This document shows, one piece after another, positions 14,824 to 39,004 of a stretch of 64,000 bases of DNA (position 1 is the stretch's first letter; each line of letters starts with the position of its first letter). The notes under the pieces were generated by a model. That model searched no databases, had not been told where the DNA came from, and saw nothing but the letters and a program-made list of their open reading frames with translations. This DNA is from Arthrobacter sp. ERGS1:01 (lineage in GTDB: Bacteria; Actinomycetota; Actinomycetes; Actinomycetales; Micrococcaceae), in NCBI RefSeq assembly GCF_001281315.1, contig NZ_CP012479.1, positions 3,966,318-4,030,317 of the forward strand. Direction: 5' to 3'. The position numbers were made by a program, and so were the translations under genes.

Positions 14824-14975
14824 CACGCACCGAATTTAGTGTGCCGATAGATCTCACTTGGCGATGTAACTGGAACGCGAAGAGTTCAGGGGAAACATCG
14901 AGTTCGCCGACCACGCCCAGACTGTGACGGTCCCACCGTTATCCACATCCTCATGTTTCGTCGGCGGTGCGCGAC

Positions 14976-20730: not shown

Positions 20731-21300
20731 GGTAGTTACTCCAAGACAATCTAAAGATGCGCCTTGCCCGAAGCTAAGTAAGGGGAAGAACAGGCCGACG
20801 CTAAGTATATGGATGCCCGCTTATCGCTTCCAGTAATAGGAAGCATGCGCAGGTGCGCAAAGCAGACACATGGGACTTCACAACATTAGGTCATTTTGGC
20901 CCCCACAGTCAAACCGCGGCGGGCGCCGCCCCTTCCCGGAGGGGTGCTGTGGTGCCATATTTTCGCGGCACCCATCCACGGCTGCCTGTGCACAGTTCCG
21001 TGGATAACCCGTGGACAAACCGTGGACAAACTGTGCGCAACGCCTCCCGCTCCGGCCCCATGTGTGACATTTATCCACAAGCCGTTTTCCCAGCTATCTT
21101 CTACCCTTTTCATCCTTTAGGCTAGGCCCGTAGCAAGTTATCCACTGGTTGTGAATAACTCTGTGGATGACGGATGTTGATCGTCCCCGGCCATCGACGC
21201 CGCGAGCGGCGCATATGTAAGGGAAGTCACTCACAGTGAGCGCACAAATACGAGATGCCGGCCCGGGAGCGGGCCACCGGCAGTAAGGGTGGACCAGTCA
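20731..21300. other. rpmH-dnaA intergenic region with a DnaA-box cluster
   Basis: 570 bases without a gene. DnaA-box-like 9-mers appear at 20999-21007 (CGTGGATAA), 21010-21018 and 21021-21029 (CGTGGACAA twice, 11 bases apart), 21071-21079 (TTATCCACA, perfect), 21138-21146 (TTATCCACT), 21150-21158 (TGTGAATAA) and 21162-21170 (TGTGGATGA). These can serve DnaA autoregulation and form the left half of a two-part origin. Divergent promoters of rpmH and dnaA must lie here. Confidence 0.75.
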
Positions 21301-22737
21301 ATGAGCACTGAGGAGATCAATGACGTTGGAAGTTCCTGGCGCCGGGTCATTCGAATTCTGGAACAAGATGAACGGGTATCCCCGCGCCAGCGCGGATTCG
21401 TCGTCCTGACCCAACCGCAGGGCCTGATCGGCAACACCTTGCTGGTGGCTGTTCCCAATGAACTGACCCGCGAGGTCCTCCAAACCCAACTTAACACCGC
21501 CCTCAACGATGCCCTGCGCCAGGTTTTCCCCGAAGAAATCGGCTGTGCCTTCAGCGTCAATGCCGATCTGGTACCCCCCGTCAAGGAAGAGGAAGCCGCG
21601 GCGGAGCCCGCTCCCCTTCGTTCCGAGCGGATCGAACGCCCGGAACCTGCCGAGCAGGCTTCCAAGCCGTCACCCACCCTGCCGAGCACCTCGCAGGAGT
21701 TTGGCCGGCTCAACCCGAAGTACGTTTTTGACTCCTTCGTGATCGGTTCCTCGAACCGTTTTGCCCACGCAGCGGCCGTGGCAGTGGCGGAGGCGCCGGC
21801 GAAGGCCTACAACCCGCTGTTTATCTACGGGGATTCCGGGCTCGGAAAAACCCACCTCCTGCACGCCATTGGCCACTACGCACGCCGGCTCTACAACGGA
21901 ATCCGTGTTCGGTACGTCAATTCCGAGGAGTTCACGAACGACTTCATCAACTCCATCCGGGACGACGAAGGCGCCAGCTTCAAACAGCTCTACCGCAACG
22001 TGGACATCCTGCTTATCGACGACATCCAGTTCCTGGCGAACAAGGACGCCACCCAGGAGGAGTTCTTCCACACCTTCAACGCCCTGCACAACCACAACAA
22101 GCAGGTTGTCATCACCTCCGACCTTCCGCCGAAGCGCCTGCAGGGCTTTGAGGAACGCATGCGCTCACGATTCGAGTGGGGCCTGCTGACCGACGTTCAG
22201 CCGCCGGAATTGGAAACCCGTATCGCGATCCTGCGCAAAAAGGCCATTGGGGAAGGTCTTTCGGCGCCCGATGACGCCCTTGAATACATTGCCTCGAAGA
22301 TCTCCACCAACATCCGTGAACTTGAGGGGGCACTGATCCGGGTCACGGCCTTCGCCAGCTTGAACCGGCAGCCGGTGGATGTGGGACTTGCCGAAATGGT
22401 GTTGAAGGACCTCATCACCGACGACGGCGCACAGGAAATTACCTCGACCGCGATCCTCGGACAGACCGCCGCGTACTTCAACATCTCCCTGGAGGAGCTC
22501 TGCAGCAAATCCCGTACGCGGACTTTGGTGACGGCCCGGCAAATTGCCATGTACCTGTGCCGTGAGCTTACCGACATGTCCCTGCCAAAGATTGGGCAGG
22601 AATTTGGTGGCCGTGACCACACCACGGTGATCCACGCCGACCGCAAAATCAGGGAACTGATGGCCGAACGACGCGCCATCTACAACCAGGTCACCGAACT
22701 GACCAACAAGATCAAGCAGCAGCAGCGCGAAGGCTAG
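21301..22737 (+). CDS. dnaA: Chromosomal replication initiator protein DnaA
   Basis: 478 residues from ATG 21301; an in-frame GTG at 21289 is the alternative. Domain I is at the N-terminus (SWRRVIRILEQ), followed by a Pro/Glu-rich linker. The AAA+ domain III has Walker A GDSGLGKTHLLHA and Walker B LLIDDIQFLANK. The DNA-binding domain IV ends with the DnaA signature GGRDHTTVIHADRKI. DnaA-ATP binds DnaA boxes on both sides of this gene and melts the origin. Confidence 0.97.
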   Translation: MSTEEINDVGSSWRRVIRILEQDERVSPRQRGFVVLTQPQGLIGNTLLVAVPNELTREVLQTQLNTALNDALRQVFPEEIGCAFSVNADLVPPVKEEEAAAEPAPLRSERIERPEPAEQASKPSPTLPSTSQEFGRLNPKYVFDSFVIGSSNRFAHAAAVAVAEAPAKAYNPLFIYGDSGLGKTHLLHAIGHYARRLYNGIRVRYVNSEEFTNDFINSIRDDEGASFKQLYRNVDILLIDDIQFLANKDATQEEFFHTFNALHNHNKQVVITSDLPPKRLQGFEERMRSRFEWGLLTDVQPPELETRIAILRKKAIGEGLSAPDDALEYIASKISTNIRELEGALIRVTAFASLNRQPVDVGLAEMVLKDLITDDGAQEITSTAILGQTAAYFNISLEELCSKSRTRTLVTARQIAMYLCRELTDMSLPKIGQEFGGRDHTTVIHADRKIRELMAERRAIYNQVTELTNKIKQQQREG

Positions 22738-23203: not shown

Positions 23204-24327
23204 GTGAAGTTCCGAGTCGAACGGGATGTTCTGACCGAAGCAGTCAGTTGGGCCGCACGTTCGCTGTCGCCCCGGCCCCCGGTTCCTGTCCTTTCAGGTC
23301 TGCTGCTCAAGGCCGAAGCCGGCACCTTGAGCCTCGCCAGCTTTGACTATGAGATTTCCGCACGTCTGGAAATCCCTGCGGACATCACTGAAGAGGGCAC
23401 CATCCTGGTCTCCGGACGGTTGCTGGCCGATATTTGCCGCAGCCTTCCCGCCGCACCGGTTGAGGTGGAGACCGACGGATCGAAAGTCACCCTCACCTGC
23501 CGCAGCAGTCGTTTCCACCTGGCCACCATGCCGGTCAACGACTATCCGGAACTTCCGGCCCTGCCCGAGCTGAGCGGAACCGTCGACGGCGAAGCCTTCG
23601 CCCAGGCTGTTTCCCAGGTCATCATTGCCTCCAGCAAGGACGACACCCTGCCCATCCTCACCGGCGTGAAGATGGAAATTGAAGGTGACCTGATCACCTT
23701 GCTGGCCACCGACCGTTACCGGCTGGCCCTGCGGGAAATCCGCTGGAACCCCACCTCCCGGGAATCTCCACCGGAGCCCTGGTCAAGGCCAAAACGTTGA
23801 GCGAAGTCGCCAAAACCCTCGGTGGCGCCGGAAACATCAACATCGCGCTCTCCGAAAACAGCGAACTTATCGGCTTTGAAAGTGGCGGACGCCGCACCAC
23901 TTCGCTGCTCGTGGATGGGGATTACCCCAAGATCCGTTCGCTGTTCCCGGACAACACGCCTATCTACGCCACAGTGGAAACCCACGCCCTGGCCGAGGCC
24001 GTACGTCGCGTATCCCTCGTGGCCGAACGCAACACTCCTGTCAGGTTGATCTTCACGGACGGCCAGCTCACCCTCGACGCCGGAACCGGCGAGGATGCGC
24101 AGGCATCGGAAAACCTTGAGGCGGCACTTGTCGGCGAGGAAATCACCGTCGCGTTCAACCCGCACTACCTGAGCGAAGGTTTGAGCGCTTTCGATAGCAA
24201 GTACGTGAGGTTCTCCTTCACCTCCGCACCCAAGCCGGCCATGTTGACGGCCCAGGACGACATCGACGGTGACAATCGTGACGACTACCGCTACCTGGTC
24301 ATGCCGGTGAGGCTGCCCAACCAGTAG
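23204..24327 (+). CDS. dnaN: DNA polymerase III sliding clamp beta subunit (frameshifted)
   Basis: Two frames together make the full clamp. Residues 1-185 (from MKFRVERDVLTEAVSW) read from 23204, and the rest (from about GISTGALVKAKTLSEVAKTL) reads in the +1-shifted frame to the stop at 24327. The break is at the CCC run 23757-23759; adding one C there restores WNPTSPGISTGALVK and a 374-residue protein, the normal family length. The clamp encircles DNA and tethers polymerase III, so a dead copy should be lethal. The shift is probably a sequencing or assembly error, less likely a real mutation with another copy elsewhere. Confidence 0.92.
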
Positions 24328-35247: not shown

Positions 35248-35375
35248 GGTTCTCCTCCAGGTGTCTGCGTCTTCTTCTTCAGCCTACGTCCTGTGCCTGT
35301 GCGCTTGCCATCATTTGGCAGTTCGCCCCGCGCGGAATGTGTGGACTTGTCAGGAAAATTGCCAGTCGGGCGTGG

Positions 35376-35388
35376 CAGAATGGCGCCA
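35376..35388 (+). promoter_or_regulatory. Leaderless-type -10 element of the cyclophilin gene
   Basis: CAGAAT at 35376-35381 ends six bases before the ATG at 35388, which has no purine-rich site before it. Confidence 0.4.
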
Positions 35389-35930
35389 TGACTGCTATCC
35401 CAACCGCAAAAGCAACTATCAGCACCAGCCTGGGCGACATCGTCGTTAACCTTTTCGGTAACCACGCTCCCAAGACTGTCAACAACTTCGTGGGCCTGGC
35501 CACCGGTGCCATCGAATGGACCCACCCGGCAACCGGCGAGAAGACCACCGCCCCGCTGTACAACGGCACCATCTTCCACCGCATCATCAAGGACTTCATG
35601 ATCCAGGGTGGCGATCCCCTGGGCCGCGGCGTTGGCGGTCCCGGTTTCCAGTTCGACGACGAGATCCACCCGGAACTGAACTTCAACGACCCCTACAAGT
35701 TCGCCATGGCCAACGCCGGCATCCAGGGCGGTCGCGGCACCAACGGTTCACAGTTCTTCATCACCACGGTGAACACGAGCTGGCTCCAGGGCAAGCACAC
35801 CATCTTCGGTGAAGTGACCGACGCCGACTCCAAGGCCGTCGTCGACGCCATCGAGGCTGTCGCCACGGGTCCCGGCGACAAGCCGCGTGAAGACGTCGTC
35901 ATCAACTCCGTCACGGTGGAGCAGCTCTAA
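35388..35930 (+). CDS. ppiA: Peptidyl-prolyl cis-trans isomerase (cyclophilin)
   Basis: 180 residues from ATG 35388; the longer open frame from 35337 lacks support and would start upstream of the likely promoter. Cyclophilin signatures are present: TIFHRIIKDFMIQGGD with the catalytic Arg, GRGTNGSQFFITTVNTSWLQGKHTIFGEV spread over about residues 112-141, and Trp in the cyclosporin-binding position. No signal peptide, so it is cytosolic. It speeds proline isomerisation in protein folding. A ppiA gene followed by a rhomboid gene after gyrA is conserved in actinobacteria. Confidence 0.95.
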   Translation: MTAIPTAKATISTSLGDIVVNLFGNHAPKTVNNFVGLATGAIEWTHPATGEKTTAPLYNGTIFHRIIKDFMIQGGDPLGRGVGGPGFQFDDEIHPELNFNDPYKFAMANAGIQGGRGTNGSQFFITTVNTSWLQGKHTIFGEVTDADSKAVVDAIEAVATGPGDKPREDVVINSVTVEQL

Positions 35931-35943
35931 GCAAAGTTTGTGG

Positions 35944-35985
35944 CGGGCCCGGCCCCTGGGAGCACCCGGGGCCGGGCCCGTTGTT
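35944..35985 (+). terminator. Terminator after ppiA
   Basis: Perfect 13-base arms CGGGCCCGGCCCC and GGGGCCGGGCCCG, then TTGTTTT. Confidence 0.88.
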
Positions 35986-36027
35986 TTACCCGCTGCCGTT
36001 GACGCAACTTTTCTAGGAATCCACGCC

Positions 36028-36891
36028 ATGAGTTCTGCCTATCCAAGCGCCGGCGCCCCCGTGGGCGCCCCGGTTTGCCCCCGCCACCCTGACAGGGTCT
36101 CCTATGTGAGCTGCCAGCGGTGTGGCCGGCCAACCTGCCCGGAATGCCAGCGCAGCGCCGCCGTTGGCATCCAGTGCGTGGATTGCGTCAAGGAATCAGC
36201 CCGGGCCATGCCGACCAGGAGGACCATTTTTGGCGGGGCCGTGACCACGGGCCGGCCGGTGGTCACCATCACCATGATGGCCATCTGCGTGGTGCTCTTT
36301 GCCCTGGACTGGATCATCCCCAACGGCTTTATCTTCAACAACCTTGCCTACGCGCCGTTCTTCACGGAGTCCGAGCCGTGGCGGATGCTGACGTCGGCGT
36401 TCCTGCACTCCACCGACATCCTGCACATCGCCTTTAACATGTACGCCTTGTGGATTTTGGGCAACGCCCTGGAACCGGCATTTGGCCGCCTGAGATTCCT
36501 CTCCGTTTACCTCATCAGCGCCCTCGGCGGATCCGTGGGGGTGCTGCTGCTCTCCCCCATCGACACCGCCGTCGTGGGTGCCTCAGGCGCCGTCTTCGGC
36601 CTCTTCGGGGCACTGTTCGTGGTTCAAAAGAAGCGGGGCGGCGATCTTCGCCAGATCGTTGTCCTGTTGCTCATCAACGCCGCACTCGGCTTCATCATCC
36701 CCAACATCTCCTGGCAGGCCCACCTGGGCGGCCTGATCACCGGCGCCCTGTGCACGGCAGCCATTGCCTATGCCCCGGCCATCAAGAACCGCAACCTGGT
36801 CCAGTGGGGTGGCATGGCCGCCGTCGTGGTCATCCTGGCGGCACTGACCGTCTACAAGGTCTCCACTTTCCCGCCGTTCATCATCGGCTAG
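36028..36891 (+). CDS. Rhomboid-family intramembrane serine protease with N-terminal zinc ribbon
   Basis: 287 residues from ATG 36028. The N-terminus has four Cys pairs and a His in a B-box/zinc-ribbon-like pattern (CPRHPDRVSYVSCQRCGRPT, then CPECQRSA and CVDCVKES, about residues 16-58). Six or more membrane helices follow, with the catalytic serine in GASGAVFGLFG and the catalytic histidine in SWQAHLGGLITG. Rhomboids cut membrane proteins within the bilayer. The zinc domain may bind substrates or partners. The 3' end overlaps the convergent flavin reductase-like gene by four bases. Confidence 0.92.
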   Translation: MSSAYPSAGAPVGAPVCPRHPDRVSYVSCQRCGRPTCPECQRSAAVGIQCVDCVKESARAMPTRRTIFGGAVTTGRPVVTITMMAICVVLFALDWIIPNGFIFNNLAYAPFFTESEPWRMLTSAFLHSTDILHIAFNMYALWILGNALEPAFGRLRFLSVYLISALGGSVGVLLLSPIDTAVVGASGAVFGLFGALFVVQKKRGGDLRQIVVLLLINAALGFIIPNISWQAHLGGLITGALCTAAIAYAPAIKNRNLVQWGGMAAVVVILAALTVYKVSTFPPFIIG

Positions 36892-37439
36892 GGCTTGATC
36901 TTCCGGTAGTCACCGGCATAGTGGAGCAACGGGCCCAGGCCCGGATGCCACGGAACCCCACTGCCCATGCCCACCACATTTCCCACCACCAGCAAATGCG
37001 TGGCCGCCTCATGAACGGCCGTTGTGGCGACCTCAAAATACGCCAGCCCGCCCTCAATGACGGCGTTTCCAGTGGCTGGCCCGCGCCTAAAAGGCACCTG
37101 GCTCAGGAGCCCCTCAAGGGGCGTGCCCGGACTTGCCAGCCAATTGGCCTCCCGCTGTTGATCCGCCGTCAGCAACGTCAACGCCCACTGTCCGGACGAC
37201 GCCACGGCCTGCGCGATCCGTGAACCCTCATAGAGGCTCACCAGGAGTGTCGGAGGGTCGTAGGACACTGAGAGGTACGCGGAGACCGTGGCCGCGTAAT
37301 CACGCCCGCGCCACACCGTGCTGACGATGCCCACACCGGCGGCCTGTTCGGCGCTCAGCCGGCGGTATTCATCGATGTCACTTTGGCTCGGTGCCTGTGG
37401 GGAAATACGAACTGAGTCGAGTGGATCGGAGATTTCCAT
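36888..37439 (-). CDS. Flavin reductase-like domain protein
   Basis: 183 residues from ATG 37439 (the frame extends upstream to 37508, into the DnaA-box region, which is unlikely to be coding). The FMN-binding split-barrel pattern is visible: AAGVGIVSTVWRGRDYAATV, then DPPTLLVSLYEGSRIAQAV and NWLASPG with EVATTAVHEAATHLLVVGNV. Members reduce free flavin with NAD(P)H, often for a monooxygenase, or bind FMN for other oxidations. No partner gene is adjacent, so the physiological role is open. Confidence 0.83.
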   Translation of the reverse strand: MEISDPLDSVRISPQAPSQSDIDEYRRLSAEQAAGVGIVSTVWRGRDYAATVSAYLSVSYDPPTLLVSLYEGSRIAQAVASSGQWALTLLTADQQREANWLASPGTPLEGLLSQVPFRRGPATGNAVIEGGLAYFEVATTAVHEAATHLLVVGNVVGMGSGVPWHPGLGPLLHYAGDYRKIKP

Positions 37440-37942
37440 GCGTTCATCGTCCCACGCATCCACAGTTGTCCACAGGACTATCCACACATGGGCATAACTT
37501 ACAGACATGTAGTTCTAGTAGTTGAAACTTCGTCGTACACATCCTTTTCCACAAGGATGTACACATTGTTAATAAGTTACACACATGTAATTCCACAGCT
37601 GTGGATTACTTTCGGAGGGCACTTCCGCGTCTTTTAAGCGAAAGTGGGGCAAAAGTTATCCACTTCTGTGGATAACGTTGTGAACAACTCGCTATGGCCC
37701 CACCTTCGAAGACCGCCTGTGGATAGTTCGAACAAGTTGTCAACGGCAGTGGATAAGTTTCAGTTCTTCCCCCACGAGATCCACACCATGTGGATAAGGC
37801 TGGGGATAGTCTGTGCACAGCGGTCGCGCGACGCCGGTTTTGGAGGGCCCGGAGCAACGTGTCACTATTCCGGGTTTCGTGTCATCCGACGCATACCCGT
37901 GAGTACTTTGGGACCCTCATCCGATCAGGTTGGTGGGACAGA
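37440..37942. promoter_or_regulatory. Gene-free DnaA-box cluster
   Basis: About 500 bases without a credible gene. DnaA-box-like 9-mers: 37456-37464 (GCATCCACA), 37466-37474 (TTGTCCACA), 37478-37486 (CTATCCACA), 37545-37553 (TTTTCCACA), 37600-37608 (TGTGGATTA), 37656-37664 (TTATCCACT), 37667-37675 (TGTGGATAA, perfect), 37718-37726 (TGTGGATAG), 37748-37756 (AGTGGATAA), 37777-37785 (AGATCCACA) and 37789-37797 (TGTGGATAA, perfect). Density and box types match the two clusters around dnaA. An AT-rich stretch lies at 37490-37600. It may titrate or reload DnaA or control nearby genes. Confidence 0.72.
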
Positions 37943-38410
37943 CTATGGCAGCGCGCCAACCACCGCGGCGAGCTGAAGGAGCATTGCGGCCAGGACCATT
38001 GCCGTGCGGATGTAGTGCAAGCGGTGCCACTGGCGGCGAATGTCCGCCCAGTTCGACGGCGGCGCACCTGCCTCCCAGTTGTGCACAGTCCTATTGATCG
38101 GGACAACACGCGCAATGGTGAGCACGGTAGCGGCTGCAATCAGCGCAATCGCGAGAATTGAGAGTGCGAATTGGGCCGGCTGCGTAGCGAACGAGATCGC
38201 AAGGAGCGTTCCGGTGCCGATCGCAGCGAACACCAGGATGCGGTATCTGATTGTCCCGAGCGCCGTGTTCGCCTGTTCGGACTCGATGTAGGCCGATGCG
38301 GAGAGCCGATTTTGTGCGGGGACCAGCACAAGTGCGCCGTCGACGTACGCTCCGGCGAGGATGCCCATCGTCGCGAGGGCCAGAAGCCGGATGATGCCCG
38401 GATACAGCAT
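37943..38410 (-). CDS. DUF1772 membrane protein
   Basis: 155 residues with four hydrophobic helices. The conserved polar segment VPINRTVHNWEAGAPPSNWA followed by RRQWHRLHYIRT is typical of DUF1772 (anthrone-oxygenase-like) proteins. Biochemical function in bacteria is not established. It directly follows a TetR regulator gene (stop and start almost touching), so it is probably part of the regulated operon. Confidence 0.82.
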   Translation of the reverse strand: MLYPGIIRLLALATMGILAGAYVDGALVLVPAQNRLSASAYIESEQANTALGTIRYRILVFAAIGTGTLLAISFATQPAQFALSILAIALIAAATVLTIARVVPINRTVHNWEAGAPPSNWADIRRQWHRLHYIRTAMVLAAMLLQLAAVVGALP

Positions 38411-39004
38411 CTATCTTCCTCCCACTGTCAGTTCGACCAAGTGCTCGAGGTAGCGGTCCGTGTCTACCGGTCTGACGGAGTCCATGCCGAGTACGCGCTG
38501 CAGCAAGATGAATGACATCAGGCTTCCGAAGAACGATCTCGCGCTGAGGTAGCCCTCGTCCGCGTTTTTGGCGACCCCACGCTGTGCCAGCTGCTCGCCG
38601 AGCGCAGACGCTGCACGGTCGATGAAGCCGGCAAAGCGGGCATCCTGAACCTCTGCGTGGTTGCCGACGAGGATCAGGATGAGGTCGAGGTTGGCGGTGA
38701 TCCGCTCCAGGAATCCACGGCCGAGGCGCAGGAGGAGCTGCTCTGTTGGAAGTGCGGCCATTCGTTCGAGCGGAGGCAACGAACTGAACGTCTCGATTGC
38801 CTGGGTGACCACGAAGTCAAGCAAGTCCCGCTTGTTGGCAAAATGCCGATACAGCAACGCGTCGCTGACACCAGCGGCTCGGGCAAGTTCGCGCGTGGTC
38901 GTCGCATGGTAGCCATTCGTCGCAAACAGGGAACGCGCTGCACCTGAAATCTCCGCCCTCCGGTCATCGGCACTTAACCGGCGCCTGGGGCTGGGCTCAG
39001 TCAC
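38411..39004 (-). CDS. TetR/AcrR-family transcriptional regulator
   Basis: 197 residues from GTG 39004, with CAGGAGGG upstream. The N-terminal helix-turn-helix is AARSLFATNGYHATTTRELA followed by AAGVSDALLYRHFANKRDLL (residues about 22-61), and an all-helical ligand domain follows. GTGA overlap couples it to the membrane protein upstream. A 24-base inverted repeat just before the operon start is a candidate operator, suggesting autorepression relieved by an unknown ligand. Confidence 0.92.
   Translation of the reverse strand: MTEPSPRRRLSADDRRAEISGAARSLFATNGYHATTTRELARAAGVSDALLYRHFANKRDLLDFVVTQAIETFSSLPPLERMAALPTEQLLLRLGRGFLERITANLDLILILVGNHAEVQDARFAGFIDRAASALGEQLAQRGVAKNADEGYLSARSFFGSLMSFILLQRVLGMDSVRPVDTDRYLEHLVELTVGGR

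Follow-up and report, generated by a model that had tools for sequence, protein, structure and literature searches.

A DnaA-box cluster between the rhomboid gene and crgA as a candidate origin-proximal DnaA control locus of the Actinomycetes

The stretch of DNA analyzed in this study, referred to as the window, is 64 kb of the 4.94-Mb genome of Arthrobacter sp. ERGS1:01 (G000:C3:3966318-4030317). Downstream of dnaA, it carries a non-coding cluster of DnaA boxes at positions 37456-37820 (no strand), referred to as the element, which consists of ten boxes with no more than one mismatch, two palindromes and an AT-rich centre. Most genomes sampled from the class Actinomycetes have similar box clusters between the rhomboid gene and crgA. 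On balance, we favour the view that the cluster, situated between rhomboid and crgA, is ancestral in this class and acts near oriC as a DnaA-binding control locus, which would restrain initiation in a datA-like manner. The kind of element is already known; its class-wide address, its layout and the palindrome appear to be new, in the sense that none of them was met in the open-access literature, outside of which most subscription papers lie.

Box content of the element

DnaA boxes were scored on both strands as the word TTRTCCACA, with perfect matches, matches with up to one mismatch and matches with up to two mismatches treated as separate classes. Perfect boxes start at 37466(+), 37667(-) and 37789(-), and seven one-mismatch boxes start at 37478, 37545, 37600, 37656, 37679, 37718 and 37748. 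By comparison, 1000 Markov shuffles of the element stretch yielded a mean of 0.3 and a maximum of 3 boxes at up to one mismatch. A preliminary description of this DNA had counted at least eleven box-like 9-mers, two of them perfect. The two perfect copies of TGTGGATAA (37667 and 37789) are indeed there, but a third perfect box, TTGTCCACA at 37466, has to be added, and the total is ten at up to one mismatch and 22 (both strands counted) at up to two.

The peak number of boxes per 350 bp is 10 in the element, 7 upstream of dnaA (20991), 5 between dnaA and dnaN (22771) and 1 at the next best place in the window. The element is therefore dense, as had been proposed, but it exceeds the clusters around dnaA rather than equalling them. 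Several boxes thus crowd into a short non-coding region that is distinct from oriC (10 per 350 bp versus 0.3 expected) and close to it, lying 14.5 kb from the dnaA-dnaN boxes, the distance given previously. The description of the region as gene-free is also true in substance, as the likely genes stop at 37439 (the start of the minus-strand flavin reductase gene) and at 37943 (the end of the next likely gene, also on the minus strand). Only mechanical open reading frames intrude: 36888-37508(-), by way of an earlier start, 37644-37976(+), which encodes 110 amino acids, and 37790-38161(+). The latter two had no Pfam family match at an E value of 0.1, and no Rfam family reached its gathering score within 37440-37940, which gives no sign of an RNA element there.

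Survey of the class

CrgA was searched for in 148 genomes across the class and found in 141 of them. Sixty of these 141 loci were fetched, having been picked by family spread and contig size, blind to boxes. The interval scored extends from the rhomboid gene (ppiA in one case) to crgA, with convergence of the two genes as the scoring condition, which held in 55 of the 60 loci. The remaining five were excluded, four for having no rhomboid or ppiA match and one (L128) for having both genes beyond crgA in a rearranged order.

The 55 intervals contain 180 boxes with up to one mismatch, compared to 10.2 expected when these intervals are shuffled, while the remaining 751 kb of the same loci contain 145. 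The enrichment of perfect boxes is similar in direction, with 66 in the 60.6 kb of intervals versus 17 in the other 751 kb. Three scrambled words, used as controls inside the intervals, gave 1, 0 and 0 perfect matches and 17, 14 and 4 one-mismatch matches. At least one box was found in 54/55 intervals and at least two in 48/55, and 36/55 reached three or more within 350 bp; the 39 intervals of 800 bp or less hold 125 boxes in 15.0 kb. In 42 of the 55 loci, the densest cluster of the entire fetched locus falls within the interval. Four loci of one family (L089, L090, L091 and L129 of f37), probably from Streptomyces, carry four to six boxes each in this interval. These four loci also share another word near their boxes, about TCACACCGGCGTCAAC, as judged by eye.

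These data bear on the possibility that the element is a DnaA-controlled promoter or operator serving its neighbours, namely the flavin reductase gene or the LuxR-type gene that diverges on the far side of the element in locus L027. Within the genus, the start of the flavin reductase gene abuts the element, so that the element is upstream of that gene there, and together with the divergent LuxR-type gene of L027 and the operator-like appearance of the palindromes, this arrangement would suit such a role. However, flavin reductase was matched in none of the 60 class loci and the LuxR-type gene in only one, with boxes still being present, and no sigma-70-type promoter was found in 36850-38450, where 0.6 would be expected. 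The element is also not upstream of a conserved gene across the class, as rhomboid (or ppiA) and crgA converge on the interval in 55/60 loci, the other five being unscorable. Because of this convergence, a promoter role would not be the shared one, and we regard this explanation as unlikely. A flavin reductase promoter was rejected as a general explanation, since the element is present where that gene is absent.

Conservation within the genus and family

Conservation behind ppiA and the rhomboid gene in relatives, put forward earlier as a check, proved to be strong, both in the class-wide enrichment of boxes and within the genus. At the DNA level, the element was matched in 21/22 same-genus relatives, in 4/13 sampled genomes from other genera of the family and in 0/22 genomes from other families of the order. 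The distance between oriC and the element is 14.2-15.8 kb in all 21 matching relatives. As the dnaA-dnaN oriC region was matched in the same 21/22 relatives (70-80% identity), the element is kept about as well as oriC itself. In the family loci L021-L024, where flavin reductase was not matched, the cluster still follows the rhomboid gene and has four to seven boxes.

Twenty of the 22 matching genus loci, our own locus included and G010 and G017 left out, were aligned. The mean column identity is 0.951 for the boxes and 0.959 for the two palindromes, compared to 0.763 for the rest of the element, 0.777 for the adjacent flavin reductase codons and 0.524 for the right flank. Eight of the ten boxes are present at up to one mismatch in all 20 loci, and the other two in 16 and 18 loci. 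From left to right, the element begins with the perfect box TTGTCCACA (37466-37474, plus strand), the position of which is occupied by a perfect box in 20/20 loci, and the box CTATCCACA (37478-37486, plus), kept at up to one mismatch in 20/20. These are followed by the first palindrome, TTACAGACATGTAG (37499-37512, plus), which has the form YTACA-N4-TGTAR, by the box TTTTCCACA (37545-37553, plus; up to one mismatch in 16/20) and by the second palindrome, TTACACACATGTAA (37577-37590, plus). All of the latter except its last base lies within the 16-bp run AAGTTACACACATGTA, which is invariant in 20/20 loci. Located 9 bp past this palindrome is the box TAATCCACA (37600-37608, minus), identical in 20/20. 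The box TTATCCACT (37656-37664, plus; up to one mismatch in 20/20) then stands head to head, across a 2-bp gap, with the perfect box TTATCCACA (37667-37675, minus), and the latter as well as the next box, TTGTTCACA (37679-37687, minus), is identical in all 20 loci. On the right, there are three further minus-strand boxes: CTATCCACA (37718-37726; up to one mismatch in 20/20), TTATCCACT (37748-37756; the same in 18/20) and TTATCCACA (37789-37797), which is perfect here and in 13/20 loci and within one mismatch in 20/20.

The AT-rich part noted previously was borne out by nearest-neighbour energies, according to which the 100 bp at 37493-37592 (no strand) are the least stable of the window and a possible unwinding stretch. 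It is conceivable that DnaA opens this stretch, in which case the element would be a second site of unwinding or belong to a split origin. A 100-bp stretch within the lowest 5% of G+C of its own locus was likewise seen in 32/33 class loci examined (of the 36 with at least three clustered boxes), and across the window cumulative GC skew reaches its lowest value at 37787, inside the cluster. When coding strand and replichore were fitted separately, for the window and for 200 kb each of the relatives G003 and G016, the residuals were lower with the strand switch at the element than at oriC in all three cases (122.3 versus 158.9, 496.4 versus 510.8 and 499.0 versus 505.5, respectively). However, the coding-strand term (-0.11 to -0.15) outweighs the replichore term (0.02-0.06), and oriC and the element are separated by a shared set of orthologues in all three sequences, so that the fits are confounded and not independent, and the main conclusion does not draw on them. 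Moreover, the raw skew minimum of G003 (3403174) is near oriC, and the best switch of G016 (2934501) is 60 kb away. TAR trinucleotides never occur three or more in a row (the DnaA-trio) in the stretch 37440-37940, although this negative result carries little weight because the dnaA-flanking regions also have no such run. In the actinobacteria studied, the dnaA-dnaN region is the functional origin. Compared with a bacterial oriC, the element is alike in box density, in having an AT-rich stretch and in its comparable conservation, but it differs in not being beside dnaA or dnaN and in having no TAR runs. Taken together, we consider an unwinding role quite improbable.

The palindrome and its spacing to the boxes

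The two TTACA-N4-TGTAR sites in the element are the only matches to TTACANNNNTGTAA in the window at up to one mismatch, and the counterpart of the second one in other families is TTACACGCGTGTAA. With TTACACANATGTARTTCCACANNTGTGGAT at up to two mismatches, a single match each was obtained in 28 of 120 genomes of the family (9/32 genera), while the reversed control gave none. An exact scan of a species collection with TTACACRCRTGTAATN{0,2}CACAG returned 60 loci, mostly from Arthrobacter and close kin, but also from Jiangella, Sediminivirga and a metagenome-assembled genome of the Pseudonocardiales. The rhomboid gene and/or crgA was present in the fetched piece of 56 of these 60 loci, and both genes were present in 39. 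The exceptions, with neither gene, are L153, L161, L194 (Actinomyces vulturis) and L196; L153 is a gammaproteobacterial metagenome-assembled genome without boxes and probably a chance match.

Flanking boxes were not included in this search pattern. A forward box is located within 60 bp upstream of the pattern in 57/60 loci, with gaps of 10-12 bp (46 boxes), 22-24 bp (41 boxes) or 46 bp (11 boxes), and a reverse box is found downstream in 55/60, with a gap of 9 bp in 50 loci and 19 bp in five. In the class survey, a relaxed form of the palindrome had 14 matches in the 55 intervals versus 1 in the remaining 751 kb. By itself, a conserved palindrome beside boxes shows that there is a second kind of site; we take it to be the putative operator of a separate conserved protein.

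Other places of the palindrome

The pattern YTACACNCRTGTAR was found at 49 places in 41/148 class genomes. As the reversed control matched in 13/148 genomes, single hits may be due to chance. Fifteen of the 49 places are at the rhomboid/crgA locus. Another ten are upstream of nrdR-nrdJ, as shown by or apparent from the neighbouring sequence, this assignment being based on Pfam in L237, L253 and L255, on sequence reading in L240 and L270, and on likeness only in the other five. All ten have two to five DnaA boxes within 200 bp, and the co-occurrence of boxes and palindrome in L253, L255, L237, L240 and L270, which belong to several families, suggests that the control of ribonucleotide reduction may be shared. 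Twelve places share their locus with a whiB-type gene and/or a glycosyltransferase gene, where the WhiB assignment comes from Pfam in L246 and L248, from sequence in L265, L266, L272 and L273, and from flanking genes or likeness only in the other six. In L246, L248, L265, L266, L272 and L273, TTACACGCGTGTAA or TTACACCCGTGTAA is near the start of the whiB-type gene beside the glycosyltransferase gene, and in L246 and L265 the palindrome, judged by eye, occupies the position of a plausible -10 region. The remaining twelve places have other or unclear contexts, with at least four (L263, L264, L268 and L271) appearing by eye to be inside reading frames. One of the 49 places (G156:C1:210358) was not fetched. 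In our own genome, TTACANNNNTGTAR has two further places, one of which (C3:396796) is, by eye, the counterpart of the G031 locus.

One protein might act at the rhomboid-crgA, whiB-type and nrdR-nrdJ palindromes. A tentative extension of the control-locus view, which we hold to be possible but doubtful, is that the element is an ancestral composite cell-cycle element of actinobacteria, in which the boxes stand at a near-constant distance from the operator YTACA-N4-TGTAR of a conserved protein that would also control whiB-type and nrdR-nrdJ genes. If true, this protein would tie the availability of DnaA at the origin to septation and the supply of deoxynucleotides, and the rhomboid-crgA site would be the actinobacterial counterpart of datA or DARS with a dedicated partner. 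Alternatively, DnaA and the palindrome protein might tether or fold the origin region at an architectural or segregation site, linking replication to division. The presence of the palindrome upstream of both whiB-type and nrdR-nrdJ genes, and the proximity of crgA and of genes for two PASTA-type kinases and a penicillin-binding protein, are in line with such a role. Yet this gene setting may be no more than a consequence of the conservation of the origin region, and we think this alternative improbable.

With respect to known regulators, MtrA was rejected as the palindrome binder, since its motif, in the available part of the published account (PMC6265350), is a direct repeat while the site here is inverted. 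The NrdR box and the BldD box seem unlikely identities of the palindrome, as the spacing in their consensus sequences appears to differ.

Possible function of the locus

Of the functions offered in the preliminary description (titration, DARS, unwinding or promoter), a titration or datA-type DnaA control site appears to fit best, and the promoter option is weakened by the convergent flanking genes. In such a scheme, DnaA would bind the boxes of the element with high affinity. After initiation, the replication fork would reach and copy the locus within ~15 kb and, because of this early copying near oriC, the doubled locus would quickly take up or inactivate DnaA, thereby restraining re-initiation. 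A separate conserved protein at the palindrome may tune the DnaA complex in the way that IHF acts at datA and DARS2. At the sequence level, the presence, conservation and position of the boxes support this control-locus view, as does the near-fixed spacing to the palindrome in many copies.

Several observations weigh against it. In seven of the 55 class genomes, the interval holds at most one box, and in 13/55 loci a group elsewhere is as dense or denser, or the boxes are too few to count. The core pattern TTACACANATGTARTTCCACANNTGTGGAT is missing from 92/120 family genomes at up to two mismatches, the relaxed palindrome amounts to only the 14 matches across the 55 intervals, and it is absent from the four f37 loci in spite of their boxes. 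The 60 pattern hits are not independent because they come mostly from Arthrobacter and close kin. Pure titration accounts for only part of the conservation, as it needs neither a palindrome nor a rigid spacing. Finally, the skew fits, favouring the element over oriC as the strand switch, would suit an origin-like role.

The preliminary description knew of no such element in actinobacteria, which was incorrect, as DnaA-box clusters of S. coelicolor were reported by Smulczyk-Krawczyszyn et al. (2006). The element resembles them in being a cluster of DnaA boxes, and the f37 loci, with boxes in the rhomboid-crgA interval, are probably from the same genus; class-wide conservation and the palindrome are absent from the available passages on the S. 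coelicolor clusters. According to the accessible parts of PMC5742627 and PMC4585315, the box clusters found in S. coelicolor and in B. subtilis, the closest systems known, have a repressive effect on untimely initiation. The B. subtilis clusters (Okumura et al. 2012, available in part) are like the element in being near oriC and repressing untimely initiation, the latter being proposed here, but they belong to another phylum. No paper dealing with DnaA boxes together with crgA was found in the open-access literature, and the passages available from PMC6265350 and PMC3937824 make no link between the two. Since the element has one fixed address in the majority of the class genomes sampled, initiation control could be tested directly in whichever member is tractable, and the palindrome provides a handle for finding a new origin-control protein. 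The clusters of the 2006 S. coelicolor study were reportedly named H69, H24 and D78. H69 may lie on the crgA cosmid, in which case it would presumably be the rhomboid-crgA element.

The E. coli datA locus, a non-coding stretch with DnaA boxes, controls initiation through its copy number and its binding of IHF (PMC5742627, in part). The element is likewise non-coding and has DnaA boxes, and the palindrome beside them marks a second kind of site. A counterpart here to the IHF-dependent ATP hydrolysis of datA would be hypothetical. To our knowledge, classical IHF is absent from actinobacteria, which are also, as far as is generally known, without the datA/DARS/SeqA/Hda set of E. coli.

The element might instead be a DARS-like site, which would help DnaA to replace its ADP with ATP and thereby stimulate initiation. 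The available description of E. coli DARS2 (PMC4585315) gives three core DnaA boxes together with additional boxes and sites for IHF and Fis, a plan that the compact boxes and the conserved accessory site resemble, and the head-to-head pair at 37656 and 37667, with 2 bp between, points in the same direction. While DARS1 and DARS2 share with the element a box core plus accessory sites, they are activating, whereas the element is proposed to be restraining. As the S. coelicolor and B. subtilis clusters are reported, in the parts of the sources at hand, to repress initiation, and an oriC-adjacent place would suit a negative element that is doubled early, a DARS-like function seems unlikely to us.

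Neighbouring genes and other DnaA-box clusters

Downstream of dnaA (21289-22737), the gene order is gyrA, ppiA, rhomboid and the flavin reductase gene, followed by the element. The left anchor of the conserved locus is ppiA (35337-35930, plus strand), which encodes a cyclophilin-type peptidyl-prolyl isomerase. The rhomboid protease gene (35887-36891, plus) is transcribed towards the element, and the flavin reductase gene (36888-37439, minus), with its 5' end abutting the element, is between the two in the genus. The right anchor, crgA (PF06781; 44964-45209, minus), is also transcribed towards the element. Two PASTA-type kinase genes and that of a penicillin-binding protein are nearby. In the window, dnaN is split into two frames (23204-24327), with 593 nucleotides between the starts compared to 594 between the tblastn starts in L027. 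The split of this essential gene probably stems from a sequencing or assembly error.

Genome-wide, perfect boxes number 62, compared to 29 matches to the reversed word. The element had been described as the third cluster, which holds within the window, but groups of three perfect boxes within 350 bp also occur at C3:3904880-3904978 and C3:3583543-3583691. The first of these is part of a cluster of three perfect and four near boxes (G000:C3:3904880-3904988; L134:4881-4989) directly upstream of dnaB, ~83 kb to the left of dnaA, and this stretch was matched in 22/22 same-genus relatives. The second (L133:4544-4692) is ~405 kb to the left of oriC and ~0.9 kb from a reading frame that, by eye, resembles a serine resolvase gene. 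A lone perfect box, TTATCCACA, is found at 14939 in the window, ~6 kb to the left of dnaA. To the right of the element, all or most of a 44-bp stretch (37841-37884) was found elsewhere in four genus genomes with 84-92% identity, and it resembles part of a repeated or mobile element.
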